Assembly (NCBI GenBank): GCA_964019135.1
Contig: OZ025255.1
Location: 868,001-932,000 of the forward strand
Length of the DNA: 64,000 nucleotides
Direction: 5' to 3'
DNA from: Arenicola marina
Lineage: Eukaryota; Annelida; Polychaeta; Arenicolidae
Within the stretch, counting starts at the first letter, position 1; each line of letters starts with the position of its first letter. Shown here piece by piece: positions 1,942 through 64,000 of this stretch. The translations under genes and the position numbers were made by a program. The notes under the pieces were generated by a model. It was not told the DNA's origin, did no database searches, and worked only from the letters and a program-made list of their open reading frames with translations.

Positions 1942-2019
1942 TCCGCCGTGCTACAACATGTGGAAGAGGAGAAGTACCAAGAATGTCCCCTACCACCTCT
2001 TCCTCATCGGCGCCATCGG
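1942..2019 (+). CDS. SLC50A1: SWEET transporter exon A (end of TM1, loop, start of TM2)
   Basis: A 78-base internal exon: one base completing a codon, 25 full codons, then GG of a split Gly codon (phase 2 on both sides). It reads PPCYNMWKRRSTKNVPYH and then FLIGAIG. This is the SWEET signature at the TM1-TM2 border: the TM1 proline, the aromatic and basic cytoplasmic loop ending K-x-x-S-T, and the Pro-Tyr that opens TM2. The acceptor AG at 1940-1941 has a good pyrimidine tract. An AG at 1920-1921 would also stay in frame and add seven residues (VCLLPFS), but has a weak tract. An in-frame TGA at 1907-1909 sets the upstream limit. The donor is CGG|GTAGGC at 2020. Read-through meets an in-frame TAG at 2021-2023. 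The last 40 bases of this exon are repeated 71 more times in the next intron. Confidence 0.85.
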
Positions 2020-5000
2020 GTAGGCATTGACCGCTGACACAGCTCTAGTAGAATGTCCCCTACCACCTCTACCTCATCGGCGCCATCGGGTAGGCATTGA
2101 CCGCTGATACAGCTCTAGTAGAATGTCCCCTACCACCTCTTCCTCATCGGCGCCATCGGGTAGGCATTGACCGCTGATACAACCCTAGTAGAATGTCCCC
2201 TACCACCTCTACCTCATCGGCGCCATCGGGTAGGCATTGACCGCTGATACAGCTCTAGTAGAATGTCCCCTACCACCTCTACCTCATCGGCGCCATCGGG
2301 TAGGCATTGACCGCTGGTACAGCTCTAGTAGAATATCCCCTACCACCTCTTCCTCATCGGCGCCATCGGGTAGGCATTGACCGCTGATACAGCTCTAGTA
2401 GAATGTCCCCTACCACCTCTACCTCATCGGCGCCATCGGGTAGGCATTGACCGCTGATACAGTTCTAGTAGAATGTCCCCTACCACCTCTTCCTCATCGG
2501 CGCCATCGGGTAGGCATTGACCGCTGATACAGCCCTAGTAGAATGTCCCTTACCACCTCTACCTCATCGGCGCCATCGGGTAGGCATTGACCGCTGATAC
2601 AGCTCTAGTAGAATGTCCCCTACCACCTCTACCTCATCGGCGCCATCGGGTAGGCATTGACCGCTGATACAGCCCTAGTAGAATATCCCCTACCACCTCT
2701 TCCTCATCGGCGCCATCGGGTAGGCATTGACCGCTGATACAGCCCTAGTAGAATGTTCCCTAGCACCTCTTCCCCATCAGGGCCATCGGGTAGGCATTGA
2801 CCGCTGACACAACCCTAGTAGAATGTCCCCTACCACCTCTTCCTCATCGGCGCCATCGGGTAGGCATTGACCGCTGATACAGCCCAAGTAGAATGTCCCC
2901 TACCACCTCTTCCCCATCAGGGCCATCGGGTAGGTATTGACCGCTGACACAACCCTAGTAGAATGTCCCCTACCACCTCTTCCTCATCGGCGCCATCAGG
3001 TAGGCATTGACCGCTGACACAGCCCTAGTAGAATGTCCCCTACCACCTCTACCTCATCGGCGCCATCGGGTAGGCATTGACCGCTGACACGGCCCTAGTA
3101 GAATGTCCCCTACCACCTCTACCTCATCGGCGCCATCGGGTAGGCATTGACCGCTGACACGGCCCTAGTAGAATGTCCCCGACCACCTCTACCTCATCGG
3201 CGCCATCGGGTAGGCATTGACCGCTGACGCGGCCCTAGTAGAATGTCCCCTACCACCTCTACCTCATCGGCGCCATCGGGTAGGCATTGACCGCTGACAC
3301 AGCTCTAGTAGAATGTCCCCTACCACCTCTACCTCATCGGCGCCATCGGGTAGGCATTGACCGCTGACACAGCTTTAGTAGAATGTCCCCTACCACCTCT
3401 TCCTCATCGGCGCCATCGGGTAGGCATTGACCGCTGATACAGCCCTAGTAGAATGTCCCCTACCACCTCTACCTCATCGGCGCCATCGGGTAGGCATTGA
3501 CCGCTGATACAGCCCTAGTCGAATGTCCCCTACCACCTCTACCTCATCGGCGCCATCGGGTAGGCATTGACCGCTGACACAGCCCTAGTAGAATGTCCCC
3601 GACCACCTCTTCCTCATCGGCGCCATCGGGTAGGCATTGACCGCTGACACAACTCTAGTAGAATGTCCCCTACCACCTCTACCTCATCGGCGCCATCGGG
3701 TAGGCATTGACCGCTGACACAACCCTAGTCGAATGTCCCTTACCACCTCTTCCTCATCGGCGCCATCGGGTAGGCATTGACCGCTGACACAGCTCTAGTA
3801 GAATGTCCCTTACCACCTCTTCCTCATCGGCGCCATCGGGTAGGCATTGACCGCTGACACAACCCTAGTCGAATGTCCCCTACCACCTCTTCCTCATCGG
3901 CGCCATCGGGTAGGCATTGACCGCTGACACGGCCCTAGTAGAATGTCCCCTAGCACCTCTACCTCATCGGCGCCATCGGGTAGGCATTGACCGCTGATAC
4001 AGCCCTAGTAGAATGTCCCCTACCACCTCTTCCCCATCGGCGCCATCGGGTAGGCATTGACCGCTGACACGGCCCTAGTAGAATGTCCCCTAGCACCTCT
4101 ACCTTATCGGCGCCATCGGGTAGGCATTGACCGCTGATACAGCCCTAGTAGAATATCCCCTACCACCTCTTCCCCATCGGCGCCATCGGGTAGGCATTGA
4201 CCGCTGACACAGCCCTAGTAGAATGTCCCCTAGCACCTCTACCTCATCGGCGCCATCGGGTAGGCATTGACCGCTGACACAACCCTAGTAGAATGTCCCC
4301 TACCACCTCTACCTCATCGGCGCCATCGGGTAGGCATTGACCGCTGATACAGCCCTAGTAGAATGTCCCATACCACCTCTTCCTTATCGGCGCCATCGGG
4401 TAGGCATTGACCGCTGACACGGCCCTAGTAGAATGTCCCCTACCACCTCTTCCCCATCAGGGCCATCGGGTAGGCATTGACCGCTGACACAACCCTAGTA
4501 GAATGTCCCCTACCACCTCTTCCTCATCGGCGCCATCGGGTAGGCATTGACCGCTGATACAGCCCAAGTAGAATGTCCCCTACCACCTCTTCCCCATCAG
4601 GGCCATCGGGTAGGCATTGACCGCTGATACAGCCCTAGTAGAATGTCCCCTACCACCTCTTCCCCATCAGGGCCATCGGGTAGGCATTGACCGCTGATAC
4701 AGCCCTAGTAGAATGTCCCCTACCACCTCTTCCTCGTCGGCGCCATCGGGTAGGCATTGACCGCTGACACAACCCTAGTAGAATGTCCCCTACCACCTCT
4801 TCCTCATCGGCGCCATCGGGTAGGCATTGACCGCTGATACAGCCCTAGTAGAATGTCCCCTACCACCTCTTCCTCATCGGCGCCATCAGGTAGGCATTGA
4901 CCGCTGACACAACCCTAGTAGAATGTCCCCTACAACCTCTACCTCATCGGCGCCATCAGGTAGGCATTGACCGCTGACACAGCCCTAGTAGAATGTCCCC

Positions 5001-7005
5001 TACCACCTCTTCCTCATCAGGGCCATCGGGTAGGCATTGACCGCTGATACAGCCCTAGTAGAATGTCCCCTACCACCTCTACCTCATCGGCGCCATCAGG
5101 TAGGCATTGACCGCTGATACAGCCCTAGTGGAATGTCCCCTACCATCTCTTCCTCATCGGCGCCATCGGGTAGGCATTGACCGCTGACACAACCCTAGTA
5201 GAATGTCCCCTCCCACCTCTTCCCCATCAGGGCCATCGGGTAGGCATTGACCGCTGATACAGCCCTAGTAGAATGTCCCCTACCACCTCTACCTCATCGG
5301 CGCCATCAGGTAGGCATTGACCGCTGATACAGCCCTAGTAGAATGTCCCCTACCACCTCTACCTCATCGGCGCCATCGGGTAGGCATTGACCGCTGACAC
5401 GGCCCTAGTAGAATGTCCCCTACCACCTCTACCTCATCGGCGCCATCGGGTAGGCATTGACTGCTGACGCAGCTCTAGTAGAATGTCCCCTACCACCTCT
5501 ACCTCATCGGCGCCATCGGGTAGGCATTGACCGCTGACACAACCCTAGTAGAATGTCCCCTACCACCTCTACCTCATCGGCGCCATCGGGTAGGCGTTGA
5601 CCGCTGACACGGCCCAAGTAGAATGTCCCCTACCACCTCTTCCCCATCAGGGCCATCGGGTAGGCATTGGCCACTGACACAGCCCTAGTAGAATGTCCCC
5701 TACCACCTCTTCCCCATCAGGGCCATCGGGTAGGCATTGACCACTGACATAACCCTAGTAGAATGTCCCCTAACACCTCTTCCTCATCGGCGCCATCGGG
5801 TAGACATTGACCGCTGACACAGCTCTAGTAGAATGTCCCCTACCACCTCTACCTCATCGGCGCCATCGGGTAGGCATTGACCGCTGGCACAACCCTAGTA
5901 GAATGTCCCCTACCACCTCTTCTTCATCGGCGCCATCGGGTAGGCATTGACCGCTGACACAGCTCTAGTAGAATGTCCCCGACCGCCTCTTCCCCATCGG
6001 CGCCATCGGGTAGGCGTTGACCGCTGACACGGCCCTAGTAGAATGTCCCCTACCACCTCTTCCCCATCGGCGCCATCGGGTAGGCATTGACCGCTGACAC
6101 AGCCCTAGTAGAATGTCCCCGACCACCTCTACCTCATCGGCGCCATCGGGTAGGCATTGACCACTGACACAGCCCTAGTAGAATATCCCCGACCACCTCT
6201 ACCTCATCGGCGCCATCGGGTAGGCATTGACCGCTGACACAGCCCTAGTAGAATGTCCCCTACCACCTCTTCCTCATCGGCGCCATCGGGTAGGCATTGA
6301 CCGCTGACACAGCCCTAGTAGAATGTCCCCTACCACCTCTTCCTCATCGGCGCCATCGGGTAGGCATTGACCGCTGACACAGCTCTAGTAGAATGTCCCC
6401 GACCACCTCTTCCCCATCGGCGCCATCGGGTAGGCGTTGACCGCTGACACGGCCCTAGTAGAATGTCCCCTACCACCTCTTCCCCATCAGGGCCATCGGG
6501 TAGGCATTGACCGCTGACACAGCCCTAGTAGAATGTCCCCGACCACCTCTACCTCATCGGCGCCATCGGGTAGGCATTGACCACTGACACAGCCCTAGTA
6601 GAATATCCCCGACCACCTCTACCTCATCGGCGCCATCGGGTAGGCATTGACCGCTGACACAGCCCTAGTAGAATGTCCCCTACCACCTCTACCTCATCGG
6701 CGCCATCGGGTAGGCATTGACCAATGACACAGCCCTAGTAGAATGTCCCCTACCACCTCTACCTCATCGGCGCCATTGGGTAGGCATTGACCACTGACAC
6801 AGCCCTAGTAGAATGTCCCCGACCACCTCTTCCCCATCAGGGCCATCGGGTAGGCATTGACCGCTGATACAGCCCTAGTAGAATGTCCCCGACCACCTCT
6901 ACCTCATCGGCGCCATCGGGTAGGCATTGACCACTGACACAGCCCTAGTAGAATGTCCCCGACCACCTCTTCCCCATCAGGGCCATCGGGTAGGCATTGA
7001 CCGCT
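1980..7005 (+). repeat. 70-bp array seeded on exon A and its splice donor (72 units)
   Basis: Seventy-two units. The marker GAATGT starts at 1981 in the exon and at 6951 in the last unit, exactly 71 x 70 bases, so there is no net length change. Each unit has about 40 bases copied from the end of exon A (from AGAATGTCC to GCCATCGG), the donor GTAGGC and a further 24 intronic bases (ATTGACCGCTGACAC, then a variable CAGCCCTAGT). Common variants are TTCC/TACC, CATCGGC/CATCAGG and GATAC/GACAC; they recur in blocks, suggesting multi-unit duplication. The first unit overlaps exon A, so the array begins inside coding sequence. It fills almost all of the 5.1-kb intron. Confidence 0.96.
2020..2025 (+). 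other. 5' splice site of exon A (GTAGGC)
   Basis: CGG|GTAGGC. It is chosen because it leaves phase 2, matching exon B, and because the next codon in frame is TAG. The same hexamer recurs every 70 bases through the following array. Confidence 0.85.
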
Positions 7006-7115
7006 GTTAAAGTGGAAATGGGTTGGAAAAATGCATTGATTACGTCTAAAACTATCGGAAAAGAGTGTACCCCCCCCCCCCAAATTGACATTTTCTGGGA
7101 ACGCCCCAGGTCAAT
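7006..7115 (+). other. Unique intron tail with 12-base C run
   Basis: Non-repeated sequence between the end of the 70-bp array and the exon B branch region. It holds a run of 12 C at 7070-7081 and an AATGCATT palindrome. No coding or RNA feature was seen. Confidence 0.8.
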
Positions 7116-7150
7116 CTTAACTGAAATGTGTTTCTTGTTTTCATTTTAAG
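7116..7150 (+). other. 3' splice site of exon B
   Basis: Branch-like CTTAAC at 7116-7121 (A 30 bases before the junction), then the T-rich TTTCTTGTTTTCATTTTAAG ending at 7150. Reading frame continuity from exon A confirms the junction. Confidence 0.9.
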
Positions 7151-7274
7151 ATGCATTGGTAACCTGCACTACAGTGTTCTGCTTGGGAACGGGACGCTGA
7201 TGTTCCTCAACAGCTTTGGAAGTCTGCTCCTCATCAGCTACACACTGCTCTACCTGCTGGTCGCCACGCCAAAG
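7151..7274 (+). CDS. SLC50A1: SWEET transporter exon B (TM2 and TM3)
   Basis: A 124-base internal exon: one base completing the Gly codon begun in exon A, then 41 codons ending exactly on AAG. It begins CIGNLHYSVLLGNGTLMF and includes LNSFG and YTLLYLLVATPK. This gives the rest of TM2, the short G-N-G turn and all of TM3. The Asn of LNSFG sits where SWEETs carry the conserved TM3 asparagine that lines the sugar site (known for the family; assigned here by spacing). The human protein has GDG, then VNTVG and a Y-x-L-x-Y end to TM3, in the same places. Acceptor is TTTTAAG with a branch-like CTTAAC 30 bases upstream; donor is AAG|GTCAGC. The last 37 bases of this exon plus the donor form the unit of the roughly 930-copy array that follows. 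Reading on past the donor stays open to a TGA at 9126. Confidence 0.93.
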
Positions 7275-7280
7275 GTCAGC
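7275..7280 (+). other. 5' splice site of exon B (GTCAGC)
   Basis: AAG|GTCAGC. It is the first of roughly 930 near-identical copies. It is chosen as the real donor because SWEET homology stops here and phase 0 fits exon C. Confidence 0.85.
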
Positions 7281-7350
7281 CAATCACCCACCCCTACACA
7301 CTGCTCTACCTGCTGGTCGCCACGCCAAAGGTCAGCCAGTCCTCCATCCC

Positions 7351-8676
7351 TACACACTGCTCTACCTGCTGGTCGCCACGCCAAAGGTCAGCCAATCCTC
7401 CACCCCTACACACTGCACTACCTGCTGGTCGCCACGCCAAAGGTCAGCCAATCCTCTACCCCTACACACTGCTCTACCTGCTGGTCGCCACGCCAAAGGT
7501 CAGCCAGTCCTCACCTACACACTGCTCTACCTGCTGGTCGCCACGCCAAAGGTCAGCCAGTCCTCCACCCCTACACACTGCTCTACCTGCTGGTCGCCAC
7601 GCCAAAGGTCAGCCAGTCCTCACCTACACACTGCTGTACCTGCTGGTCGCCACGCCAAAGGTCAGCCAGTCCTCCACCCCTACACACTGCTCTGCCTGCT
7701 GGTCGCCACGCCAAAGGTCAGCCAGTCCTCCACCCCTACACACTGCTCTACCTGCTGGTCGCCACGCCAAAGGTCAGCCAATCCTCACCTACACACTGCT
7801 CTACCTGCTGGTCGCCACGCCAAAGGTCAGCCAATCCTCCACCCCTACACACTGCTCTACCTGCCGGTCGCCACGCCAAAGGTCAGCCAATCATCGACCC
7901 CTACACATTGCTCTACCTGCTGGTCGCTACGCCAAAGGTCAGCCAATCCTCCACCCCTACACACTGCTGTACCTGCTGGTCGCCACGCCAAAGGTCAGCC
8001 AATCCTCCACCCCTACACACTGCTCTACCTGCTGGTCGCCACGCCAAAGGTCAGCCAATCCTCCACCCCTACACACTGCACTACCTGCTGGTCGCCACGC
8101 CAAAGGTCAGCCAATCCTCTACCCCTACACACTGCTCTACCTGCTGGTCGCCACGCCAAAGGTCAGCCAGTCCTCACCTACACACTGCTCTACCTGCTGG
8201 TCGCCACGCCAAAGGTCAGCCAGTCCTCCACCCCTACACACTGCTCTACCTGCTGGTCGCCACGCCAAAGGTCAGCCAGTCCTCACCTACACACTGCTGT
8301 ACCTGCTGGTCGCCACGCCAAAGGTCAGCCAGTCCTCCACCCCTACACACTGCTCTACCTGCTGGTCGCCACGCCAAAGGTCAGCCAGTCCTCCACCCCT
8401 ACACACTGCTCTACCTGCTGGTCGCCACGCCAAAGGTCAGCCAATCCTCACCTACACACTGCTCTACCTGCTGGTCGCCACGCCAAAGGTCAGCCAATCC
8501 TCCACCCCTACACACTGCTCTACCTGCCGGTCGCCACGCCAAAGGTCAGCCAATCATCGACCCCTACACACTGCTCTACCTGCTGGTCGCTACGCCAAAG
8601 GTCAGCCAATCCTCCACCCCTACACACTGCTGTACCTGCTGGTCGCCACGCCAAAGGTCAGCCAATCCTCCACCCC
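7351..8676 (+). repeat. 663-bp tandem duplication inside the exon B array
   Basis: Copies 7351-8013 and 8014-8676. Rare markers recur at the same offset: CACTGCACTA at 7411 and 8074, and TCATCGACCC at 7891 and 8554. Twelve units were duplicated as a block. Confidence 0.85.
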
Positions 8677-11600
8677 TACACACTGCTCTACCTGCTGGTC
8701 GCCACGCCAAAGGTCAGCCAATCCTCACCTACACACTGCTCTACCTGCTGGTCGCCACGCCAAAAGTCAGCCAATCCCCCACCCCTACACACTGCTCTAC
8801 CTGCTGGTCGCCACGCCAAAGGTCAGCCAGTCCTCCACCCCTACACACTGCTCTACCTGCTGGTCGCCACCCCAAAGGTCAGCCAATCCTCCACCCCTAC
8901 ACACTGTTCTACCTGCTGGTCGCCACGCCAAAAGTCAGCCAGTCCTCCACGCCTACACACTGCTCTACCTGCTGGTCCCCACCCCAAAGGTCAGCCAATC
9001 CTCCACCCCTACACACTGTTCTACCTGCTGGTCGCCACGCCAAAGGTCAGCCAATCCTCCACGCCTACACACTGCTCTACCTGCTGGTCGCCACGCCAAA
9101 GGTCAGCCAATCCTCACCTGCACACTGATCTACCTGCTGTTCGCCACGCCAAAGGTCAGCCAATCCTCACCTACACACTGCTCTACCTGCTGGTCGCCAC
9201 GCCAAAGGTCAGCCAATCCTAGACCCCTACACACTGCTCTACCTGCTGGTCGCCACGCCAAAGGTCAGCCAATCCTCCACCCCTACACACTGCTCTACCT
9301 GCTGGTCGCCACGCCAAAGGTCAGCCAGTCCTCACCTACACACTGCTCTACCTGCTGGTCGCCACGCCAAAGGTCAGCCAGTCCTCCACCCCTACACACT
9401 GCTCTACCTGCTGGTCGCCACGCCAAAGGTCAGCCAGTCCTCCACCCCTACACACTGCTCTACCTGCTGGTCGCCACGCCAAAGGTCAGCCAGTCCTCAC
9501 CTACACACTGCTCTACCTGCTGGTCGCCACGCCAAAGGTCAGCCAGTCCTCCACCCCTACACACTGCTCTACCTGCTGGTCGCCACGCCAAAGGTCAGCC
9601 AATCCTCCACCCCTACACACTGCTCTACCTGCTGGTCGCCACGCCAAAGGTCAGCCAGTCCTCCACCCCTACACACTGCTCTACCTGCTCGTCGCCACGC
9701 CAAAGGTCAGCCAGTCCTCCACCCCTACACACTGCTCTACCTGCTGGTCGCCACGCCAAAGGTCAGCCAGTCCTCACCTACACACTGCTCTACCTGCTGG
9801 TCGCCACGCCAAAGGTCAGCCAGTCCTCCACCCCTACACACTGCCCTACCTGCTGGTCGCCACGCCAAAGGTCAGCCAGTCCTCCACCCCTACACACTGC
9901 TCTACCTGCTGGTCGCCACGCCAAAGGTCAGCCAGTCCTCACCTACACACTGCTCTACCTGCTGGTCGCCACGCCAAAGGTCAGCCAGTCCTCACCTACA
10001 CACTGCTCTACCTGCTGGTCGCCACGCCAAAGGTCAGCCAGTCCTCACCTACACACTGCTCTACCTGCTGGTCGCCACGCCAAAGGTCAGCCAGTCCTCC
10101 ACCCCTACACACTGCTCTACTTGCTGGTCGCCACGCCAAAGGTCAGCCAATCCTCCACCCCTACACACTGCTCTACCTGCTGGTCGCCACGCCAAAGGTC
10201 AGCCAGTCCTCACCTACACACTGCCCTACCTGCTGGTCGCCACGCCAAAGGTCAACCAATCCTCCACCCCTACACACTGCTCTACCTGCTGGTCGCCACG
10301 CCAAAGGTCAGCCAATCCTCCACCCCTACACACTGCTCTACCTGCTGGTCGCCACGCCAAAGGTCAGCCAGTCCTCACCTACACACTGTTATACCTGCTG
10401 GTCGCCACGCCAAAGGTCAGCCAATCCTCTACCCCTACACACTGCTCTACCTGCTGGTCGCCACGCCAAAGGTCAGCCAGTCCTCACCTACTCACTGTTA
10501 TACCTGCTGGTCGCCACACCAAAGGTCAGCCAGTCCTCCACCCCTACACACTGCTCTACCTGCTGGTCGCCACGCCAAAGGTCAGCCAGTCCTCACCCAC
10601 ACACTGCTCTACCTGCTGGTCGCCACGCCAAAGGTCAGCCAGTCCTCCACCCCTACACACTGCTCTACCTGCTGGTCGCCGCGCCAAAGGTCAGCCAGTC
10701 CTCCACCCCTACACACTGCTCTACCTGCTGGTCGCCACGCCAAAGGTCAGCCAATCCTCACCTACACACTGCTCTACCTGCTGGTCGCCACGCCAAAGGT
10801 CAGCCAATCCTCCACCCCTACACACTGCTCTACCTGCAGGTCGCCACGCCAAAGGTCAGCCAATCCTCCACCCCTACACACTGCTCTACCTGCTGGTCGC
10901 CACGCCAAAGGTCAGCCAATCCTCCACCCCTACACACTGCTGTACCTGCTGGTCGCCACGCCAAAGGTCAGCCAATCCTCCACCCCTACACATTGCTCTA
11001 CCTGCTGGTCTCCACGCCAAAGGTCAGCCAATCCTCCACCCCTACACACTGCTCTACCTGCTGGTCGCCACGCCAAAGGTCAGCCAATCCTCACCTACAC
11101 ACTGCTCTACCTGCTGGTCGCCACGCCAAAGGTCAGCCAATCCTCCACCCCTACACACTGCTGTACCTGCTGGTCGCCACGCCAAAGGTCAGCCAATCCT
11201 CCACCCCTACACACTGCTCTACCTGCTGGTCGCCACGCCAAAGGTCAGCCAATCCTCCACCCCTACACACTGCTCTACCTGCTGGTCGCCACGCCAAAGG
11301 TCAGCCAATCCTCCACCCCTACACACTGCTCTACCTGCTGGTCGCCACGCCAAAGGTCAGCCAATCCTCACCTACACACTGCTCTACCTGCTGGTCGCCA
11401 CGCCAAAAGTCAGCCAATCCCCCACCCCTACACACTGCTCTACCTGCTGGTCGCCACGCCAAAGGTCAGCCAGTCCTCCACCCCTACACACTGCTCTACC
11501 TGCTGGTCGCCACCCCAAAGGTCAGCCAATCCTCCACCCCTACACACTGTTCTACCTGCTGGTCGCCACGCCAAAAGTCAGCCAGTCCTCCACGCCTACA

Positions 11601-17000: not shown

Positions 17001-18089
17001 TGGTCGCCACGCCAAAGGTCAGCCAATCCTCACCTACACACTGCTCTACCTGCTGGTCGCCACGCCAAAGGTCAGCCAATCCTCACCTACACACTGCTCT
17101 ACCTGCTGGTCGCCACGCCAAAAGTCAGCCAATCCTCCACACCTACACACTGCTCTACCTGCTGGTCGCCACGCTAAAGCTCAGCCAATCCTCCATCCCT
17201 ACACACTGCTCTACCTGCTGGTCGCCAGGCCAAAGGTCAGCCAATCCTCCACCCCTACACACTGCTCTACCAGCTGGTCGCCACGCCAAAGGTCAGCCAA
17301 TCCTCCACCCCTACACACTGCTCTACCTGCTGGTCGCCACGCCAAAGGTCAGCCAATCCTCACCTGCACACTGCTCTACCTGCTGGTCGCCACGCCAAAG
17401 GTCAGCCAATCCTCACCTACACACTGCTCTACCTGGTGGTCGCCACGCCAAAGGTCAGCCAATCCTCCACCCCTACACACTGCTCTACCTGCTGGTCGCC
17501 ACGCCAAAGGTCAGCCAATCCTCCACCCCTACACACTGCTGTACCTGCTGGTCGCCACGCCAAATGTCAGCCAATCCTCCACCCCTACACACTGCTCTAC
17601 CTGCTGGTCGCCACGCCAAAGGTCAGCCAATCCTCCACCCCTACACACTGCTCTACCTGCTGGTCGCCACGCCAAAGGTCAGCCAATCCTCCACCCCTAC
17701 ACACTGCTGTACCTGCTGGTCGCCACGCCAAAGGTCACCCAATCCTCACCTACACACTGTTCTACCTGCTGGTCGCCACGCCAAAGGTCAGCCAATCCTC
17801 ACCTACACACTGCTCCACCTGCTGGTCGCCACGCCAAAGGTCAGCCAATCCTCCACCCCTACACACTGCTCTACCTGCTGGTCGCCACGCCAAAGGTCAG
17901 CCAATCCTCCACCCCTACACACTGCTCTACCTGCTGGTCGCCACGCCAAAGGTCAGCCAATCCTCCACCCCTACACACTGCTCTACCTGCTGGTCGCCAC
18001 TCCAAAGGTCAGCCAATCCTCCACCCCTACACACTGCTCTACCTGCTGGTCGCCACGCCAAAGGTCAGCCAATCCTCCACCCCTACACA

Positions 18090-19940
18090 CTGCTGTACCT
18101 GCTGGTCGCCACGCCAAAGGTCAGCCAATCCTCCACCCCTACACACTGCTCTACCTGCTGGTCGCCACGCCAAAGGTCAGCCAATCCTCCACCCCTACAC
18201 ACTGCTCTACCTGCTGGTCGCCACGCCAAAGGTCAGCCAGTCCTCACCTACACACTGCTGTACCTGCTGGTCGCCACGCCAAAGGTCAGCCAATCCTCAC
18301 CTACACACTGCTCTACCTGCTGGTCGCCACGCCAAAGGTCAGCCAATCATCACCTACACACTGCTCTACCTGCTGGTCGCCACGCCAAAGGTCAGCCAAT
18401 CCTCACCTACACACTGTTCTACCTGCTGGTCGCCACGCCAAAGGTCAGCCAATCCTCACCTACACACTGCTCTACCTGCTGGTCGCCACGCCAAAGGTCA
18501 GCCAATCCTCACCTACACACTGCTCTACCTGCTGGTCGCCACGCCAAAAGTCAGCCAATCCTCCACACCTACACACTGCTCTACCTGCTGGTCGCCACGC
18601 TAAAGCTCAGCCAATCCTCCATCCCTACACACTGCTCTACCTGCTGGTCGCCAGGCCAAAGGTCAGCCAATCCTCCACCCCTACACACTGCTCTACCTGC
18701 TGGTCGCCACGCCAAAGGTCAGCCAATCCTCACCTGCACACTGCTCTACCTGCTGGTCGCCACGCCAAAGGTCAGCCAATCCTCACCTACACACTGCTCT
18801 ACCTGCTGGTCGCCACGCCAAAGGTCAGCCAATCCTCCACCCCTACACACTGCTCTACCTGCTGGTCGCCACGCCAAAGGTCAGCCAATCCTCCACCCCT
18901 ACACACTGCTGTACCTGCTGGTCGCCACGCCAAATGTCAGCCAATCCTCCACCCCTACACACTGCTCTACCTGCTGGTCGCCACGCCAAAGGTCAGCCAA
19001 TCCTCCACCCCTACACACTGCTCTACCTGCTGGTCGCCACGCCAAAGGTCAGCCAATCCTCCACCCCTACACACTGCTCTACCTGCTGGTCGCCACGCCA
19101 AAGGTCAGCCAGTCCTCACCTACACACTGCTGTACCTGCTGGTCGCCACGCCAAAGGTCAGCCAATCCTCACCTACACACTGCTCTACCTGCTGGTCGCC
19201 ACGCCAAAGGTCAGCCAATCATCACCTACACACTGCTCTACCTGCTGGTCGCCACGCCAAAGGTCAGCCAATCCTCACCTACACACTGTTCTACCTGCTG
19301 GTCGCCACGCCAAAGGTCAGCCAATCCTCACCTACACACTGCTCTACCTGCTGGTCGCCACGCCAAAGGTCAGCCAATCCTCACCTACACACTGCTCTAC
19401 CTGCTGGTCGCCACGCCAAAAGTCAGCCAATCCTCCACACCTACACACTGCTCTACCTGCTGGTCGCCACGCTAAAGCTCAGCCAATCCTCCATCCCTAC
19501 ACACTGCTCTACCTGCTGGTCGCCAGGCCAAAGGTCAGCCAATCCTCCACCCCTACACACTGCTCTACCTGCTGGTCGCCACGCCAAAGGTCAGCCAATC
19601 CTCACCTGCACACTGCTCTACCTGCTGGTCGCCACGCCAAAGGTCAGCCAATCCTCACCTACACACTGCTCTACCTGCTGGTCGCCACGCCAAAGGTCAG
19701 CCAATCCTCCACCCCTACACACTGCTCTACCTGCTGGTCGCCACGCCAAAGGTCAGCCAATCCTCCACCCCTACACACTGCTGTACCTGCTGGTCGCCAC
19801 GCCAAATGTCAGCCAATCCTCCACCCCTACACACTGCTCTACCTGCTGGTCGCCACGCCAAAGGTCAGCCAATCCTCCACCCCTACACACTGCTCTACCT
19901 GCTGGTCGCCACGCCAAAGGTCAGCCAATCCTCCACCCCT
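18090..19940 (+). repeat. 872-bp tandem duplication inside the exon B array
   Basis: The same marker changes recur 872 bases apart: the GCTAAAGCTC unit ending at 18603 and 19475, and the AAATGTCAG unit at 18934 and 19806. Boundaries are approximate. Confidence 0.7.
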
Positions 19941-32100: not shown

Positions 32101-32149
32101 ACGCCAAAGGTCACCCAATCCTCACCTACACACTGTTCTACCTGCTGGT

Positions 32150-49100: not shown

Positions 49101-49440
49101 CACACTGCTCTACCTGCTGGTCGCCACGCCAAAGGTCAGCCAATCCTCACCTACACACTGTTCTACCTGCTGGTCGCCACGCCAAAGGTCAGCCAATCCT
49201 CACCTACACACTGCTCTACCTGCTGGTCGCCACGCCAAAGGTCAGGCAATCCTCACCTACACACTGCTCTACCTGCTGGTCGCCACGCCAAAAGTCAGCC
49301 AATCCTCCACCCCTACACACTGCTCTACCTGCTGGTCGCCACGCCAAAGGTCAGCCAATCCTCACCTACACACTGCTCTACCTCCTGGTCGCCACGCCAA
49401 AGGTCAACCAATCCTCACCTACACACTGCTCTACCTGCTG
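46160..49440 (+). repeat. Triplicated block of about 1.1 kb (second 16-kb copy)
   Basis: Corresponds to 32150-34300 in the first 16-kb copy but is present three times. GTGAGCC occurs at 46334, 47468 and 48543, offsets 1134 and 1075. This shows continued growth after the 16-kb duplication. Confidence 0.75.
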
Positions 49441-52400: not shown

Positions 52401-55400
52401 GCCAAAGGTCAGCCAATCCTCCACCCCTACACACTGCTCTACCTGCTGGTCGCCACTCCAAAGGTCAGCCAATCCTCCACCCCTACACACTGCTCTACCT
52501 GCTGGTCGCCACGCCAAAGGTCAGCCAATCCTCCACCCCTACACACTGCTCTACCTGCTGGTCGCCACGCCAAAGGTCAGCCAATCCTCCACCCCTACAC
52601 ACTGCTCTACCTGCTGGTCGCCACGCCAAAGGTCAGCCAATCCTCCACCCCTACACACTGCTCTACCTGCTGGTCGCCACGCCAAAGGTCAGCCAGTCCT
52701 CACCTACACACTGCTGTACCTGCTGGTCGCCACGCCAAAGGTCAGCCAATCCTCACCTGCACACTGCTCTACCTGCTGGTCGCCACGCCAAAGGTCAGCC
52801 AATCATCACCTACACACTGCTCTACCTGCTGGTCGCCACGCCAAAGGTCAGCCAATCCTCACCTACACACTGTTCTACCTGCTGGTCGCCACGCCAAAGG
52901 TCAGCCAATCCTCACCTACACACTGCTCTACCTGCTGGTCGCCACGCCAAAGGTCAGCCAATCTTCACCTACACACTGCTCTACCTGCTGGTCGCCACGC
53001 CAAAAGTCAGCCAATCCTCCACACCTACACACTGCTCTACCTGCTGGTCGCCACGCTAAAGCTCAGCCAATCCTCCATCCCTACACACTGCTCTACCTGC
53101 TGGTCGCCACGCCAAAGGTCAGCCAATCCTCCACCCCTACACACTGCTCTACCAGCTGGTCGCCATGCCAAAGGTCAGCCAATCCGCCACCCCTACACAC
53201 TGCTCTACTTGCTGGTCGCCACGCCAAAGGTCAGCCAATCCTCACCTGCACACTGCTCTACCTGCTGGTCGCCACGCCAAAGATCAGCCAATCCTCACCT
53301 ACACACTGCTCTACCTGCTGGTCGCCACGCCAAAGGTCAGCCAATCCTCCACCCCTACACACTGCTCTACCTGCTGGTCGCCACGCCAAAGGTCAGCCAA
53401 TCCTCCACCCCTACACACTGCTGTACCTGCTGGTCGCCACGCCAAATGTCAGCCAATCCTCCACCCCTACACACTGCTCTACCTGCTGGTCGCCACGCCA
53501 AAGGTCAGCCAATCCTCCACCCCTACACACTGCTCTACCTGCTGGTCGCCACGCCAAAGGTCAGCCAATCCTCCACCCCTACACACTGCTCTACCTGCTG
53601 GTCGCCACGCCAAAGGTCAGCAAATCCTCTACCCCTACACACTGCTCTACCTGCTGGTCGCCACGCCAAAGGTCAGCCAATCCTCCACCCCTACACACTG
53701 CTCTACCTGCTGGTCGCCACGCCAAAGGTCAGCCAATCCTCCACCCCTACACACTGCTGTACCTGCTGGTCGCCGGGCCAAATGTCAGCCAATCCTCCAC
53801 CCTTACACACTGCTCTACCTGCTGGTCGCCACGCCAAAGGTCAGCCAATCCTCCACCCCTACACACTGCTCTACCTGCTGGTCGCCACGCCAAAGGTCAG
53901 CCAGTCCTCACCTACACACTGCTCTACCTGCTGGTCGCCACGCCAAAGGTCAGCCAATCCTCACTTACACACTGCTCTGCCTGCTGGTCGCCACGTCAAA
54001 GGTCAGCCAATCCTCCACCCCTACACACTGCTCTACCTGCTGGTCGCCACGCCAAAGGTCAGCCAGTCCTCCACCCCTACACACTGCTCTACCTGCTGGT
54101 CGCCACCCCAAAGGTCAGCCAATCCTCCATCCCTACACACTGCTCTACCTGCTGGTCGCCACGCCAAAGGTCAGCCAATCCTCCACCCCTACACACTGCT
54201 CTACCTGCTGGTCGCCACGCCAAAGGTCAGCCAGTCCTCACCTACCCACTGCTCTACCTGCTGGTCGCCACGCCAAAGGTCAGCCAATCCTCACCTACAC
54301 ACTGTTCTACCTGCTGGTCGCCACGCCAAAGGTCAGCCAGTCCTCACCTACACACTGCTCTACATGCTGGTCGCCACGCCAAAGGTCAGCCCATCCTCCA
54401 CCCCTACACAGTGCTCTACCTGCTGGTCGCCACGCCAAAGGTCAGCCAATCCTCCACCCCTACACAGTGCTCTACCTGCTGGTCGCCACCCCAAAGGTCA
54501 GCCAATCCTCCACCCCTACACACTGCTCTACCTGCTGGTCGCCACGCCAAAGGTCAGCCAATCCTCACCTACACACTGCTCTACCTGCTGGTCGCCACGC
54601 CGGATGTCAGCCAATCATCACCTACACACTGCTCTACCTGCTGGTCGCCACGCCAAAGGTCACCCAATCCTCACCTACACACTGTTCTACCTGCTGGTCG
54701 CCACGCCAAAGGTCAGCCAATCCTCACCTACACACTGCTGTACCTGCTGGTCGCCACGCCAAAGGTCAGCCAATCCTCACCTACACACTGCTCTACCTGC
54801 TGGTCGCCACGCCAAAAGTCAGCCAATCCTCCACCCCTACACACTGCTCTACCTGCTGGTCGCCACGCCAAAGGTCAGCCAATCCTCACCTACACACTGC
54901 TCTACCTCCTGGTCGCCACGCCAAAGGTCAACCAATCCTCACCTACACACTGCTCTACCTGCTGGTCGCCACGCCAAAGGTCAGCCAATCCTCCACCCCT
55001 ACACACTGCTCTACCTGCTGGTCGCCACGCCAAAGGTCAGCCAATCCGCACCTACACACTGCTCTACCTGCTGGTCGCCACGCCAGATGTCAGCCAATCA
55101 TCACCTACACACTGCTCTACCTGCTGGTCGCCACGCCAAAGGTCAGCCAATCCGCACCTACACACTGCTCTACCTGCTGGTCGCCACGCCAGATGTCAGC
55201 CAATCATCACCTACACAGTGCTCTACCTGCTGGTCGCCACGCCAAAGGTCAGCCAATCCTCACCTACACACTGCTCTACCTCCTGGTCGCCACGCCAAAG
55301 GTCAACCAATCCTCACCTACACACTGCTCTACCTGCTGGTCGCCACGCCAAAGGTCAGCCAATCCTCCACCCCTACACACTGCTCTACCTGCTGGTCGCC

Positions 55401-58400
55401 ACGCCAAAGGTCAGCCAATCCTCCACCCCTACACACTGCTCTACCTGCTGGTCGCCACGCCAAAGGTCAGCCAATCCTCCACCCCTACACACAGCTCTAC
55501 CTGCTGGTCGCCACGCTAAAGGTCAGCCAATCCTCCACCCCTACACACTGCTCTACCTGCTGGTCGCCACGCCTAAGGTCAGCCAATCCTCCACCCCTAC
55601 ACACTGCTCTACCTGCTGGTCGCCACGCCAAAGGTCAGCCAATCCTCCGCCCCTACACACTGCTCTACCTGCTGGTCGCCACGCCAAAGGTCAGCCAATC
55701 CTCACCTACACACTGCTCTACCTGCTGGTCGCCACGCCAAAGGTCAGCCAATCCTCACCTACACACTGCTCTACCTGCTGGTCGCCACGCCAAAGGTCAG
55801 CCAATCCTCCACCCCTACACACTGCTCTACCTGCTGGTCGCCACGCCAAAGGTCAGCCAATCCTCCACCCCTACACACTGCTCTACCTGCTGGTCGCCAC
55901 GCCAAAGGTCATCCAATCCTCACCTACACACTGCTCTACCTGCTGGTCGCCACGACAAAGGTCAGCCAATCCTCACCTACATACTTCTCTACCTGCTGGT
56001 CGCCACGCCAAAGGTCAGCCAATCCTCCACCCCTACACACTGCTCTACCTGCTGGTCGCCACGCCAAAGGTCAGCCAGTCCTCCACCCCTACACACTGCG
56101 CTACCTGCTGGTCGCCACGCCAAAGGTCAGCCAGTCCTCACCTACACACTGCTCTACCTGCTGGTCGCCGCGCCAAAGGTCAGCCAGTCCTCCACCCCTA
56201 CACACTGCTCTACCTGCTGGTCGCCACGCCAAAGGTCAGCCAATCCTCCACTCCTACACACTGCTCTACCTGCTGGTCGCCACGCTAAAGGTCAGCCAAT
56301 CCTCCACCCCTACACACTGCTCTACCTGCTGGTCGCCACGCCAAAGGTCAGCCAATCCTCCACCCCTACACACTGCTCTACCTGCTGGTCGCCACGCCAA
56401 AGGTCAGCCAGTCCTCACCTACACACTGCTCTACCTGCTGGTCGCCACGCCAAAGGTCAGCCAATCCTCACCTACACACTGCTCTGCCTGCTGGTCGCCA
56501 CGCCAAAGGTCAGCCAATCCTCCACCCCTACACACTGCTCTACCTGCTGGTCGCCACGCCAAAGGTCAGCCAATCCTCACCTACACACTGCTCTACCTGC
56601 TGGTCGCCACGCCAAAGGTCAGCCAATCCTCACCTACACACTGCTCTACCTGCTGGTCGCCACGCCAAAGGTCAGCCAATCCTCACCTACACACTGCTCT
56701 ACCTGCTGGTCGCCACGCCAAAGGTCAGCCAATCCTCACCTACACACTGCTCTACCTGCTGGTCGCCACGCCAAAGGTCAGCCAATCCTCACCTACACAC
56801 TGCTCTACCTCCTGGTCGCCACGCCAAAGGTCAACCAATCCTCACCTACACACTGCTCTACCTGCTGGTCGCCACGCCAAAGGTCAGCCAATCCTCCACC
56901 CCTACACACTGCTCTACCTACTGGTCGCCACGCCAAAGGTCAGCCAATCCTCCACCCCTACACACTGCTCTACCTGCTGGTCGCCACGCCAAAGGTCAGC
57001 CAATCCTCCACCCCTACACACTGCTCTACCTGCTGGTCGCCACGCTAAAGGTCAGCCAATCCTCCACCCCTACACACTGCTCTACCTGCTGGTCGCCACG
57101 CCAAAGGTCAGCCAATCCTCCACCCCTACACACTGCTCTACCTGCTGGTCGCCACGCCAAAGGTCAGCCAATCCTCCACCCCTACACACTGCTCTACCTG
57201 CTGGTCGCCACGCCAAAGGTCAGCCAATCCTCCATCCCTACACATTGCTCTACCTGCTGGTCGCCACGCCAAAGGTCAGCCAATCCTCCACCCCTACACA
57301 CTGCTCTACGTGCTGGTCGCCACGCCAAAGGTCAGCCAATCCTCCACCCCTACACACTGCTCTACCTGCTGGTCGCCACGCCAAAGGTCAGCCAATCATC
57401 CATCCCTACACACTGCTCTACCTGCTGGTCGCCACGCTAAAAGTCAGCCAATCCTCCACCCCTACACACTGCTCTACCTGCTGGTCGCCACGCCAAAGGT
57501 CAGCCAATCCTCCACCCCTACACACTGCTCTACCTGCTGGTCGCCACGCTAAAGGTCAGCCAATCCTCCACCCCTACACACTGCTCTACCTGCTGGTCGC
57601 CACGCCAAAGGTCAGCCAATCCTCCACCCCTACACACTGCTCTACCTGCTGGTCGCCACGCTAAAGGTCAGCCAATCCTCCACCCCTACACACTGCTCTA
57701 CCTGCTGGTCGCCACGCCAAATGTCAGCCAATCCTCCACCCCTACACACTGCTCTACCTGCTGGTCGCCACGCCAAAGGTCAGCCAATCCTCCACCCCTA
57801 CACACTGCTCTACCTGCTGGTCGCCACGCCAAAGGTCAGCCAATCCTCCACCCCTACACACTGCTCTACCTGCTGGTCGCCACGCCAAAGGTCAGCCAAT
57901 CCTCCACCCCTACACACTGCTCTACCTGCTGGTCGCCACGCTAAAGGTCAGCCAATCCTCCACCCCTACACACTGCTCTTCCTGCTGGTCGCCACGCTAA
58001 AGTTCAGCCAATCCTCCACCCCTACACACTGCTCTACCTGCTGGTCGCCAGGCTAAAGGTCAGCCAATCCTCCACCCCTACACACTGCTCTACCTGCTGG
58101 TCGCCACGCCAAAGGTCAGCCAATCCTCCACCCCTACACACTGCTCTACCTGCTGGTCGCCACGTCAAAGGTCAGCCAATCCTCCACCCCTACACACTGC
58201 TCTACCTGCTGGTCGCCACGCCAAAGGTCAGCCAATCCTCCACCCCTACACACTGCTCTACCTGCTGGTCGCCACGCCAAAGGTCAGCCAATCCTCCACC
58301 CCTACACTCTGCTCTACCTGCTGGTCGCCACGCCAAAGGTCAGCCAATCCTCCACCCCTACACACTGCTCTACCTGCTGGTCGCCAGGCTAAAGGTCAGC

Positions 58401-58640
58401 CAATTCTCCACCCCTAAACACTGCTCTACCTGCTGGTCGCCACGCTAAAGGTCAGCCAATCCTCCACCCGTACACACTGCTCTACCTGCTGGTCGCCACG
58501 CTAAAGGTCCGCCAATCCTCCACCCCTACACACTGCTCTACCTGCTGGTCGCCACGCTAAAGGTCAGCCAATCCTCCACCCCTACACACTGCTCTACCTG
58601 CTGGTCGCCACGCTAAAGGTCAGCCAATCATCCACCCCTA

Positions 58641-60260
58641 GTGCCACACACCATCCTGGCCAGTAACAGACCCGGTGGCTGTTACCCCGTGCCACATACT
58701 GGCCAGTAACAGACCCGGTGGCTGTTACCCCGTGCCACATACCGGCCAGTAACAGACCCGGTGGCTGTTACCCCGTGCCACATACTGGCCAGTAACAGAC
58801 CGGGTGGCTGTTACCCCGTGCCACATACCGGCCAGTAACAGACCCGGTGGCTGTTAACCCGTGCCACATACCGGCCAGTAACAGACCCGGTGGCTGTTAA
58901 CCCGTGCCACATACCGGCCAGTAACAGACCCGGTGGCTGTTAACCCGTGCCACATACCGGCCAGTAACAGACCCGGTGGCTGTTAACCCGTGCCACATAC
59001 CGGCCAGTAACAGACCCGGTGGCTGTTACCCCGTGCCACATACCGGCCAGTAACAGACCCGGTGGCTGTTAACCCGTGCCACATACCAGCCAGTAACAGA
59101 CCCGGTGGCTGTTACCCCGTGCCACATACCGGCCAGTAACAGACCCGGTAGCTGTTACCCCGTGCCACATACTGGCCAGTAACAGACCCGGTAGTTGTTA
59201 CCCCGTGCTACATACTGGCCAGTAACAGACCCGGTGGCTGTTACCCCGTGCCACATACTGGCCAGTAACAGACCGGGTGGCTTTTACCCCGTGCCACATA
59301 CCGGCCAGTAACAGACCCGGTGGCTGTTAACCCGTGCCACATACCGGCCAGTAACAGACCCGGTGGCTGTTAACCCGTGCCACATACTGGCCAGTAACAG
59401 AACCGGTGGCTGTTACCCCGTGCCACATACCGGCCAGTAACAGACCCGGTGGCTGTTACCCCGTGCCACATACTGGCCAGTAACAGACCCGGTAGTTGTT
59501 ACCCCGTGCTACATACTGGCCAGTAACAGACCCGGTGGCTGTTACCCCGTGCCACATACTGGCCAGTAACAGACCGGGTGGCTTTTACCCCGTGCCACAT
59601 ACCGGCCAGTAACAGACCCGGTGGCTGTTAACCCGTGCCACATACCGGCCAGTAACAGACCCGGTGGCTGTTAACCCGTGCCACATACTGGCCAGTAACA
59701 GAACCGGTGGCTGTTACCCCGTGCCACATACCGGCCAGTAACAGACCCGGTGGCTGTTACCCCGTGCCACATACTGGCCAGTAACAGAACGGGTGGCTGT
59801 TACCCCGTGCCACATACCGGCCAGTAACAGACCCGGTGGCTGTTACCCCGTGCCACATACTGGCCAGTAACAGACCCGGTGGCTGTTACCCCGTGCCACA
59901 TACTGGCCAGTAACAGAACCCGTGGCTGTTACCCCGTGCCACATACCGGCCAGTAACAGACCCGGTGGCTGTTACCCCGTGCCACATACTGGCCAGTAAC
60001 AGACCCGGTGGCTGTTACCCCGTGCCACATACCGGCCAGTAACAGACCCGGTGGCTGTTACCCCGTGCCACATACCGGCCAGTAACAGACCCGGTGGCTG
60101 TTACCCCGTGCCACATACTGGCCAGTAACAGACCCGGTGGCTGTTACCCCGTGCCACATACCGGCCAGTAACAGACCCGGTGGCTGTTACCCCGTGCCAC
60201 ATACCGGCCAGTAACAGACCCGGTGGCTGTTACCCCGGGCCACATACTGGCCAGTAACAG
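58641..60260 (+). repeat. 43-bp array with a hairpin in each unit (about 37 units)
   Basis: Units of 43 bases of the form GTGCCACATACCGGCCAGT, then AACAGACCCGGTGGCTGTTA, then CCCC. Each contains GTAACAG and its reverse complement CTGTTAC nine bases apart, able to pair, with a CC/GG extension around CGGT. It abuts the exon B array with no spacer. Unrelated to any exon in the window. Confidence 0.95.
59165..59785 (+). repeat. 301-bp (7-unit) duplication in the 43-bp array
   Basis: The rare GTAGTTGTT variant at 59191 and 59492, and AACCGG at 59401 and 59702, recur exactly 301 bases (7 x 43) apart, together with GTGCTACAT and GGCTTTTACC variants. Confidence 0.85.
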
Positions 60261-60273
60261 TTCCACATACCGT

Positions 60274-60655
60274 ATTGTGATATCATTGTGGGATCATTGT
60301 GATATCATGGTGATATCATTGTGATATCATGGTGATATCATTGTGATATCATGGTGATATCATTGTGATATCATGGTGATATCATCGTGATATCATGGTG
60401 ATATCATTGTGATATCATGGTGATATCATTGTAATGTCATTGTGACATCATGGTGATATCATTGTGATGTCATTGTGATATCATTGTAATGTCATTGTGA
60501 CATCATGGTGATATCATCGTGATATCATGGTGATATCATTGTGATATCATTGTGATATCATGGTGCTATCTTTGTAATATCATTGTGACATCATGGTGAT
60601 ATCTTTGTAATATCATTGTAATGTCATTGTGATGTCACAGCAATGTCCTAGCAAT
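60274..60655 (+). repeat. 11-bp array (GTGATATCATT/G), about 34 units
   Basis: Tandem 11-base units alternating GTGATATCATT and GTGATATCATG, decaying to TGTAATGTCA and TGTGACATCA forms toward 60650. Each regular unit has the 8-base palindrome TGATATCA. It lies just upstream of the exon C acceptor. Confidence 0.95.
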
Positions 60656-60719
60656 GGGGTCGAGACCAGTGGTGTCGGGAGGTCGATCCTAATAGTAATA
60701 GTAACCGCTTTCTCTACAG
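60656..60719 (+). other. Unique intron end and 3' splice site of exon C
   Basis: About 64 bases of non-repeated sequence, the only such stretch in intron B. It contains CCTAATAG (branch-like A 28 bases before the junction) and the tract CCGCTTTCTCTACAG ending at 60719. Confidence 0.9.
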
Positions 60720-60875
60720 GGGAAGCCCATCGCGATGTTACTGGCGGCTGCGGCCGTCATCGGCGGCGCCTACGCCCACCTGGACGGCCTGCCAGCCGAG
60801 GACTACAGGCCGTCCCTGGGCAGGCTGGCGGCCTTCGCCACCACAGTGTACGCCTGTCTGCCAGCCCTGGAACTG
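60720..60875 (+). CDS. SLC50A1: SWEET transporter exon C (TM4 linker helix, start of TM5)
   Basis: A 156-base exon of exactly 52 codons, phase 0 at both ends. It reads GKPIAMLLAAAAVIGGAY, then AHLDGLPAEDYRP, then LGRLAAFATTVYACLPALEL. The Ala-rich hydrophobic stretch is the TM4 linker between the two triple-helix bundles, followed by a polar loop. The last 20 residues are the first part of TM5 with its conserved proline (the human segment reads LGLFCSVFTISMYLSPLADL as I recall). Strong acceptor TTTCTCTACAG with a CTAAT branch-like site 28 bases upstream; donor CTG|GTAGGT at 60876. Read-through ends at TAG 60924-60926. Coding sequence is GC-rich and clean. The final 37 bases are repeated through the next intron to the end of the window. 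TM6, TM7 and the C-tail must follow beyond 64000. Confidence 0.93.
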
Positions 60876-61730
60876 GTAGGTACCACACCACCGTGTACGC
60901 CTGTCTGCCAGCCCTGGAACTGGTAGATACCACACCACCGTGTACGCCTGTCTGCCAGCCCTGGAACTGGTAGGTACCACACCACGGTGTACCCCTGTCT
61001 GACAGCCCTGGAACTGGTAGGTACCACACCCCCGTGTACGCCTGTCTGCCAGCCCTGGAACTGGTAGGTACCACACCACCGTGTACGCCTGTCTGCCAGC
61101 CCTGGAACTGGTAGGTACCACACCACGGTGTACGCCTGTCTGCCAGCCCTGGAACTGGTAGGTACCACACCACCGTGTACGCCTGTCTGCCAGCCCTGGA
61201 ACTGGTAGATACCACACCACCGTGTACGCCTGTCTGCCAGCCCTGGAACTGGTAGGTACCACACCACGGTGTACCCCTGTCTGACAGCCCTGGAACTGGT
61301 AGGTACCACACCCCCGTGTACGCCTGTCTGCCAGCCCTGGAACTGGTAGGTACCACACCACCGTGTACGCCTGTCTGCCAGCCCTGGAACTGGTAGGTAC
61401 CACACCACGGTGTACGCCTGTCTGCCAGCCCTGGAACTGGTAGGTACCACACCACCGTGTACGCCTGTCTGCCAGCCCTGGAACTGGTAGATACCACACC
61501 ACCGTGTACGCCTGTCTGCCAGCCCTGGAACTGGTAGGTACCACACCACGGTGTACCCCTGTCTGACAGCCCTGGAACTGGTAGGTACCACACCCCCGTG
61601 TACGCCTGTCTGCCAGCCCTGGAACTGGTAGGTACCACACCACCGTGTACGCCTGTCTGCCAGCCCTGGAACTGGTAGGTACCACACCACAGTGTACGCC
61701 TGTCTGCCAGCCCTGGAACTGGTAGGTACC
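60850..61730 (+). repeat. 282-bp (6-unit) block, three tandem copies in the 47-bp array
   Basis: The variant GTACCCCTGTCTGACAG recurs at offset 282 (ACCCCTGTCT at 60991, 61273 and 61555), each time followed by a CACACCCCCGTG unit. A separate 5-unit (235-bp) periodicity appears at about 62209/62444 and 63149/63384. Confidence 0.85.
60876..60881 (+). other. 5' splice site of exon C (GTAGGT)
   Basis: CTG|GTAGGT at the end of the TM5 coding stretch; SWEET homology continues up to it. It recurs every 47 bases downstream. Confidence 0.85.
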
Positions 61731-64000
61731 ACACCACGGTGTACGCCTGTCTGCCAGCCCTGGAACTGGTAGGTAACACACCACCGTGTACGCCTGTCTG
61801 CCAGCCCTGGAACTGGTAGGTACCACACCACGGTGTACGCCTGTCTGCCAGCCCTGGAACTGGTAGGTACAACACCACAGTGTACGCCTGTCTGCCAGCC
61901 CTGGAACTGGTAGGTACCACACCACCGTGTACGCCTGTCTGCCAGCCCTGGAACTGGTAGGTACCACACCACAGTGTACGTCTGTCTGCCAGCCCTGGAA
62001 CTGGTAGGTACCACACCACCGTGTACGCCTGTCTGCCAGCCCTGGAACTGGTAGGTACCACACCACCGTGTACGCCTGTCTGCCAGCCCTGGAACTGGTA
62101 GGTACCACACCACAGTGTACGTCTGTCTGCCAGCCCTGGAACTGGTAGGTACCACACCACCGTGTACGCCTTTCTACCAGCTCTGGAACTGGTAGGTACC
62201 ACACCACAGTGTACGCCTGTCTGCCAGCCCTGGAACTGGTAGGTACCACACCACAGTGTACGCCTGTCTGCCAGCTCTGGAAATGGTATGTACCACACCA
62301 CAGTGTACGCCTGTCTGCCAGCCTTGGAACTGGTAGGTACCTCACCACAGTGTACGCCTGTCTGCCAACTCTGGAACTGGTAAGTACCACACCACGGTGT
62401 ACGCCTGTCTGCCAGCTCTGGAACTGGTAGGTACCACACCACAGTGTACGCCTGTCTGCCAGCCCTGGAACTGGTAGGTACCACACCACAGTGTACGCCT
62501 GTCTGCCAGCTCTGGAACTGGTATGTACCACACCACAGTGTACGCCTGTCTGCCAGCCCTGGAACTGGTAGGTACCTCACCACAGTGTACGCCTGTCTGC
62601 CAGCTCTGGAACTGGTAAGTACCACACCACGGTGTACGCCTGTCTGCCAGCCCTGGAACTGGTAGGTACCACACCACACTGTACGCCTGTCTGCCAGCTC
62701 TGGAACTGGTAGGTACCACACCACAGTGTACGCCTGTCTGCCAGCTCTGGAACTGGTAGGTACCACACCACGGTGTACGCCTGTCTGCAAGCTCTGGAAC
62801 TGGTAGGTACCACACCAAGGTGTACGCCTGTCTGCCAGCCCTGGAACTGGTAGGTACCACACCACGGTGTACGCCTGTCTGCCAGCCCTGGAACTGGTAG
62901 GTACCACACCACCGTGTACGCCTGTCTGCCAGCTCTGGAACTGGTAAGTACCACACCACAGTGTACGCCTGTCTGCCAGCCCTGCAACTGGTAGGTACCA
63001 CACCACCGTGTACGCCTGTCTGCCAGCCCTGGAACTGGTAGGTACCACACCACAGTGTACGTCTGTCTGCCAGCCCTGGAACTGGTAGGTACCACACCAC
63101 GGTGTACGCCTGTCTGCCAGCTCTGGAACTGGTAGGTACCACACCACAGTGTACGCCTGTCTGCCAGCCCTGGAACTGGTAGGTACCACACCACAGTGTA
63201 CGCCTATCTGCCAGCTCTGGAACTGGTATGTACCACACCACAGTGTACGCCTGTCTGCCAGCCTTGGAACTGGTAGGTACCTCACCACAGTTTACGCCTG
63301 TCTGCCAGCTCTGGAACTGGTAAGTACCACACCACGGTGTACGCCTGTCTGCCAGCTCTGGAACTGGTAGGTACCACACCACAGTGTACGCCTGTCTGCC
63401 AGCCCTGGAACTGGTAGGTACCACACCACAGTGTACGCCTGTCTGCCAGCTCTGGAACTGGTATGTAACACACCACAGTGTACGCCTGTCTGCCAGCTCT
63501 GGAACTGGTAGGTACCTCACCACGGTGTACGCCTGTCTGCCATCTCTGGAACTGGTAAGTACCACACCACAGTGTACGCCTGTCTGCCCGCCCTGGAACT
63601 GGTAGGTACCACACCACGGTGTACGCCTGTCTGCAGCCCTGGAACTGGTAGGTACCACACCACGGTGTACGCCTGTCTGCCAGCCCTGGAACTGGTAGGT
63701 ACCACACCACAGTGTACGCCTGTCTGCCAGTCCTGGAACTGGTAGGTACCACACCACCGTGTACGCCTGTCTGCCAGCCCTGGAACTGGTAGATACCACA
63801 CCACAGTGTACGCCTGTCTGCCAGCCCTGGAACTGGTAGGTACCACACCACGGTGTACGCCTGTCTGCCAGCAATGGAACTGGTAGGTACCACACCACCG
63901 TGTACGCCTGTCTGCCAGCCCTGGAACTGGTAGGTACCACACCACGGTGTACGCCTGTCTGCCAGCCCTGGAACTGGTAGGTACCACACCACAGTGTACG

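Follow-up and report, generated by a model that had tools for sequence, protein, structure and literature searches.

Three consecutive exons of one gene, lying in the 64,000-nucleotide stretch of DNA that was analysed (the window), run without interruption into tandem arrays. The locus raises the question of how arrays built on exon ends could arise, reach such lengths and leave the gene readable.

Exons, arrays and host gene

Tandem repeats were located with TRF, which returned seven rows for the window, representing six distinct arrays that fill nearly its whole length. Three of these, at 1980−7006 (70-bp unit), 7238−58640 (56-bp unit) and 60839−64000 (47-bp unit), adjoin exons A, B and C, respectively; the exons were read from the sequence and, like their arrays, lie on the plus strand. 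Exon A (1942−2019, 78 nt) is bounded by an acceptor AG at 1940−1941 and a donor GT at 2020−2021 and ends in phase 2. Array A holds 72 units of 70 bp, the last of them incomplete, and each unit consists of the last 40 nt of exon A followed by 30 nt of intron starting at the donor GTAGGC. Exon B (7151−7274, 124 nt) has the acceptor AAG and the donor GTCAGC at 7275. Its array spans 51.4 kb and comprises 938 units, in which the last 37 nt of the exon are followed by either 19 or 16 nt of intron from the donor, giving unit lengths of 56 bp (n=556) or 53 bp (n=376), with six units of 55 or 57 bp. Exon C (60720−60875, 156 nt) has the acceptor CTACAG and the donor GTAGGT at 60876; an alternative donor may lie 4 nt downstream. 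The unit of array C is the last 37 nt of this exon plus 10 nt of intron from the donor. For this array, 67 units were anchored (66 complete intervals), and as it exits the window and is cut by the window end, its copy number of at least 66 is a lower bound.

The spacing of the anchored units was regular, being 70 bp in 71 of 71 intervals of array A, 56 or 53 bp in 931 of 937 intervals of array B and 47 bp in 65 of 66 intervals of array C. In a BLAST comparison with the three exons, the unit consensus sequences aligned at 100% identity, the matches covering precisely the 3′-terminal 40 nt of exon A, 37 nt of exon B and 37 nt of exon C; the arrays start at these same distances upstream of the exon ends, with no gap. 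An earlier note on this DNA had proposed that each of the three exons is followed by an array of its own 3′ end, its donor and a short intron piece, that the arrays begin inside coding sequence without a gap and that one of them covers 51 kb. TRF, the anchored units and the BLAST matches confirmed the first of these points, the array starts the second and the extent of array B the third. Its statement that every readable donor carries an array held for three of three readable donors, and is limited to one gene. Of the three readable acceptors in the window, none was overlapped by an array. By arithmetic on the TRF coordinates, array sequence accounts for 97% of intron A and, in the 53.4-kb intron B, for 99.8%.

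The authentic exons and their splice sites are intact, and exons A to C join in frame to give 119 residues. A 121-residue version, in which two residues were not secured, matched the Pfam family MtN3_slv (E = 2.4e-11; 43.9 bits against a cut-off of 23.7) over residues 4−66. The match spans the joint between exons A and B, and exon C lies outside it. Based on this match, the host gene is predicted to be of the SWEET/MtN3 type, encoding a sugar-transporter-like protein. The PDB search gave a single weak match, to 5xpd (sugar transporter chain, E = 0.2). A literature search found no paper joining SWEET, SLC50A1 and Branchiostoma. A 29-base piece of the array B unit had no exact match in viral and prokaryote collections, as expected for a eukaryote.

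Relation to amphioxus mirages and chicken exon stuttering

The arrays had been likened in the earlier note to the 'mirage' minisatellites of amphioxus introns. Mirages are tandem repeats whose units, 10−160 bp long, straddle the border between an exon and an intron and include a copy of the splice signal (PMC3087553, PMC3902484). They were published for Adh3 and the globins BflGb6 and BflGb9 (PMC3087553), and a further paper added PGBD5 and cited troponin C (PMC3902484). RT-PCR of Adh3 and the globins suggests that regular splicing is undisturbed by mirages, which vary in length (PMC3087553). The present units likewise span the boundary and copy the splice site. The copy numbers given in the mirage passages are much lower, with 2−7 copies in PGBD5 (two assemblies) and 3 and 6 in BflGb6 (two haplotypes), compared to 72, 938 and at least 66 in the present arrays. 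Some mirages, such as that of BflGb6 (PMC3087553), are found at acceptors, whereas the present arrays are at donors.

The same layout has been described in chicken as 'exon stuttering' (Hron et al. 2026, PMC12954441), where a lateral part of an exon is repeated together with its splice site through the adjacent intron. In chicken, 236 introns in 115 genes are affected, so that several introns per gene can carry such repeats, and 190 of the 236 introns are on GC-rich dot chromosomes. The repeated exon part measures 20−187 bp with a median of 36, in 1−44 copies and over spans of 112−23,555 bp. This median is close to the 37−40 nt of the present arrays, a closeness that may mean little, since the BLASTn hit threshold shapes the chicken length distribution. 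Purely intronic arrays occur alongside in chicken, as they do in the present gene. The chicken maxima of 44 copies and 23,555 bp contrast with 938 copies and 51.4 kb here, though the chicken count was made via a BLASTn threshold and is not strictly comparable. The two cases may also differ in base composition: the chicken cases lie mostly on GC-rich dot chromosomes, and the unique intron pieces of the present gene are 37, 40 and 50% GC, but its exons have a GC3 of 0.82 (119 codons). Gerbil genes are mentioned in the same paper as a further case of exon stuttering, with data not shown there. The likeness to mirages thus stood as far as layout is concerned. As mirages also occur at acceptors and the same layout is found in chicken, it does not mark the genome as amphioxus.

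Other published observations are related to a lesser degree. Intron gain through AGGT sites that undergo internal tandem duplication (the Rogers model; Gao and Lynch, via PMC3087553) also involves a duplication that carries splice signals, but the present gene shows no new intron. The amphioxus VCBP paper mentions that introns of VCBP3 contain whole or partial exons together with splice sites, possibly a further mirage-like case, and the amphioxus huntingtin paper notes assembly errors as well as tandem repeats in the scaffolds it used.

The kind of array is therefore already known from amphioxus and chicken, and it is the size that is extreme, the present locus being larger than any case sized in the relevant passages of PMC3087553, PMC3902484 and PMC12954441. 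What appears to be new is the scale, the involvement of three successive donors of a single gene and the recognition that one and the same layout has been described in amphioxus and in chicken. In the text of the chicken paper, the words 'mirage' and 'lancelet' do not occur and 'amphioxus' appears a single time, as part of a genome reference's title; the mirage papers do not seem to be cited there, and uniting the two literatures is suggested. The locus also indicates that boundary-spanning arrays can reach 938 units in one intron, with the donor preserved in most units and the exons still open.

Origin and turnover of the arrays

The consensus of each array equals the present exon end (40/40, 37/37 and 37/37 nt for A, B and C), though single units often do not, the exonic part being an exact copy of the exon end in 9 of 72 units of array A, 487 of 938 of array B and 9 of 66 of array C. 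This suggests that the arrays are young relative to exon change, or are still exchanging with the exon copy. The exonic and intronic parts of the units showed divergence of the same order. Mean values were 0.041 and 0.045 for array A (72 units), 0.043 and 0.031 for array C (65 of 66 units), and 0.022 and 0.017 for the 556 56-bp units and 0.014 and 0.032 for the 376 53-bp units of array B; units of deviant length, six in array B and one in array C, were left out of this comparison.

Probably, the locus is an instance of the known mirage or exon-stuttering kind, in which a donor-spanning duplication expanded mainly by neutral unequal exchange within the intron while the first donor served for splicing. 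The seed would have been a short tandem duplication across the 3′ end of each exon. Because every extra copy follows the first donor, the copies would be intronic and tolerated, and could be enlarged by unequal exchange, slippage or gene conversion without having a function. The first donor would be the one spliced, with later copies ignored or leading to transcripts that are discarded. The anatomy of the arrays, the identity of each exon end with the array consensus and the blocks of local duplication (below) speak for this explanation.

The array edges carry little information on the seed event. By eye, the exon-side start of array B and the sequence past its last unit both carry CTA, which is weakly compatible with microhomology-mediated duplication. 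The last copy of array A lacks 13 nt of the unit (by eye), and its edge shows no clean microhomology join, a point against the neutral-duplication explanation. Polar growth from the exon side was considered and rejected; the exon-proximal end is the most homogeneous in array C, and arrays A and B are without such a gradient.

A wider reading is that exon 3′ ends are preferred birthplaces of minisatellites, a donor-linked factor seeding duplications with a near-fixed exonic reach of 37−40 nt, and that one process lies behind amphioxus mirages, avian exon stuttering and the present gene. This seems rather unlikely as it stands. The factor, just as doubtfully, could be co-transcriptional occupancy by U1 or the spliceosome; a fork barrier or R-loop some 40 nt 5′ of the donor is another candidate.

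Turnover within the arrays was examined from the recurrence of unit variants. The first 20 units of array C repeat at a lag of six (11 of 14 comparisons identical, against 1 of 40 in the remainder). At 60839−61780, a higher-order block of six units (282 bp) is seen in repeated form. In array B, blocks recur 257, 277 and 294 units further on, the best 40-unit stretches having 93, 98 and 88% equal units, respectively; the recurrence is inexact, the longest run of identical units being 38. These inexactly recurring blocks lie at 18681−36854 and represent either recent large duplications or joined alleles. The internal blocks indicate turnover, those of array B also being explicable by joined alleles. 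An artefact of assembly, for example two alleles placed in series, would then contribute to the copy number, most notably to the 51 kb of array B, a proposal that is otherwise compatible with neutral expansion from donor-spanning duplications. The shifts of 257−294 units, or about 14−16 kb, fit such a join, but the blocks are inexact and occur at three different shifts, and the arrays are bounded by unique flanks with good splice sites. Like arrays in introns of chicken PHF8 were confirmed in raw nanopore reads (PMC12954441). An artefact of this kind is thus unlikely.

The remaining three arrays in the window are not tied to readable exon ends. The 37-bp array (1−1623) lies in the intron upstream of exon A, is cut by the window start and has no tie to a readable exon end; two apparent decayed copies are visible by eye past its end. 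The 43-bp array (58658−60260) is intronic, adjoins the 3′ side of array B and does not derive from exons A to C, its sole resemblance to them being 10 nt of exon C matched in reverse (E = 0.03). The 11-bp array (60274−60637) is also intronic and has no match to exons A to C. Seeding of these three arrays on exons A to C was rejected, as BLAST against the three exons gave no real match. The suggestion in the earlier note that minisatellites are seeded on exon ends was upheld for the three donor arrays; as a rule it rests on three donors, with three other arrays in the window unseeded on readable exon ends. These three arrays would also agree with random placement in introns, the donors being overlapped by chance. 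In 200,000 draws with random placement of the six arrays, each reduced to a single unit, and with a site counted as spanned when more than 5 nt lay on each side, all three donors were spanned with p of about 0.0024, and all three donors but no acceptor with p of about 0.0019. These values are post hoc, come from one locus and ignore coding constraint; with that reservation, chance placement is quite improbable.

Splice donors and reading frames within the arrays

All units of array A (72 of 72) and array C (66 of 66) retain the donor GT, as do 913 of the 932 array B units of 53 or 56 bp. Ranked by the number of adjacent dinucleotides that are as conserved or more, GT itself counted, it stood at 19 of 70 in array A, 33 of 56 and 17 of 53 in the 56- and 53-bp units of array B and 7 of 47 in array C. 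In A, the 53-bp units of B, and C, but not in the 56-bp units of B, the donor therefore ranked above the median dinucleotide, and in none of the four sets was it outstanding. By position-wise diversity, the copied donors show no clear extra conservation, and selection on them is no more than possible. The invariant GT of arrays A and C would also fit weak selection on donors, which counts against a purely neutral origin.

The 9-mer at the real exon's donor is unchanged in 64 of 72 units of array A, 766 of 938 of array B and 53 of 66 of array C. Since most units share it, sequence alone cannot mark the true donor, and splicing, if normal, must rely on position, the simplest choice being the donor that is made first. 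The locus thereby offers a natural test of spliceosome choice, the first among hundreds of matching donors.

All three sense-strand frames of array B are open, each containing 12−18 stops, and the longest run is 5405 codons; the opposite strand has more than 1000 stops per frame. This openness follows from a consensus unit without TAA, TAG or TGA, with the lengths 56 and 53 both shifting the frame by two. Six distinct stop-making variants were seen where 11.9 were expected, and 207 of 5454 control triples were as low; as these triples overlap one another, the signal is weak. Pure neutrality does not predict the open strand or the few stop-making variants, a weak argument against the preferred explanation. 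Coding use of array B, for which these two features were regarded as weak grounds, was not built on. When the frame of exon A is extended beyond its donor, it reaches a stop at the first complete codon; that of exon C ends at 60926, roughly one unit downstream.

That the arrays are functional, their repeated donors binding U1 or serving as a device for splicing or for delaying transcription, or a portion of array B coding in the mRNA, would accord with the invariant GT of arrays A and C, its above-median conservation in three unit sets and the open, mildly stop-variant-poor sense strand of array B, but is very improbable, given that the donor in the larger, 56-bp set of array B is kept no better than the median, that the frames past exons A and C soon close and that openness needs only one stop-free unit. 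Array B is also strongly strand-asymmetric, its sense strand being poor in G, with a GC skew of −0.42 to −0.46 in every 2-kb step from 8001 to 58000.
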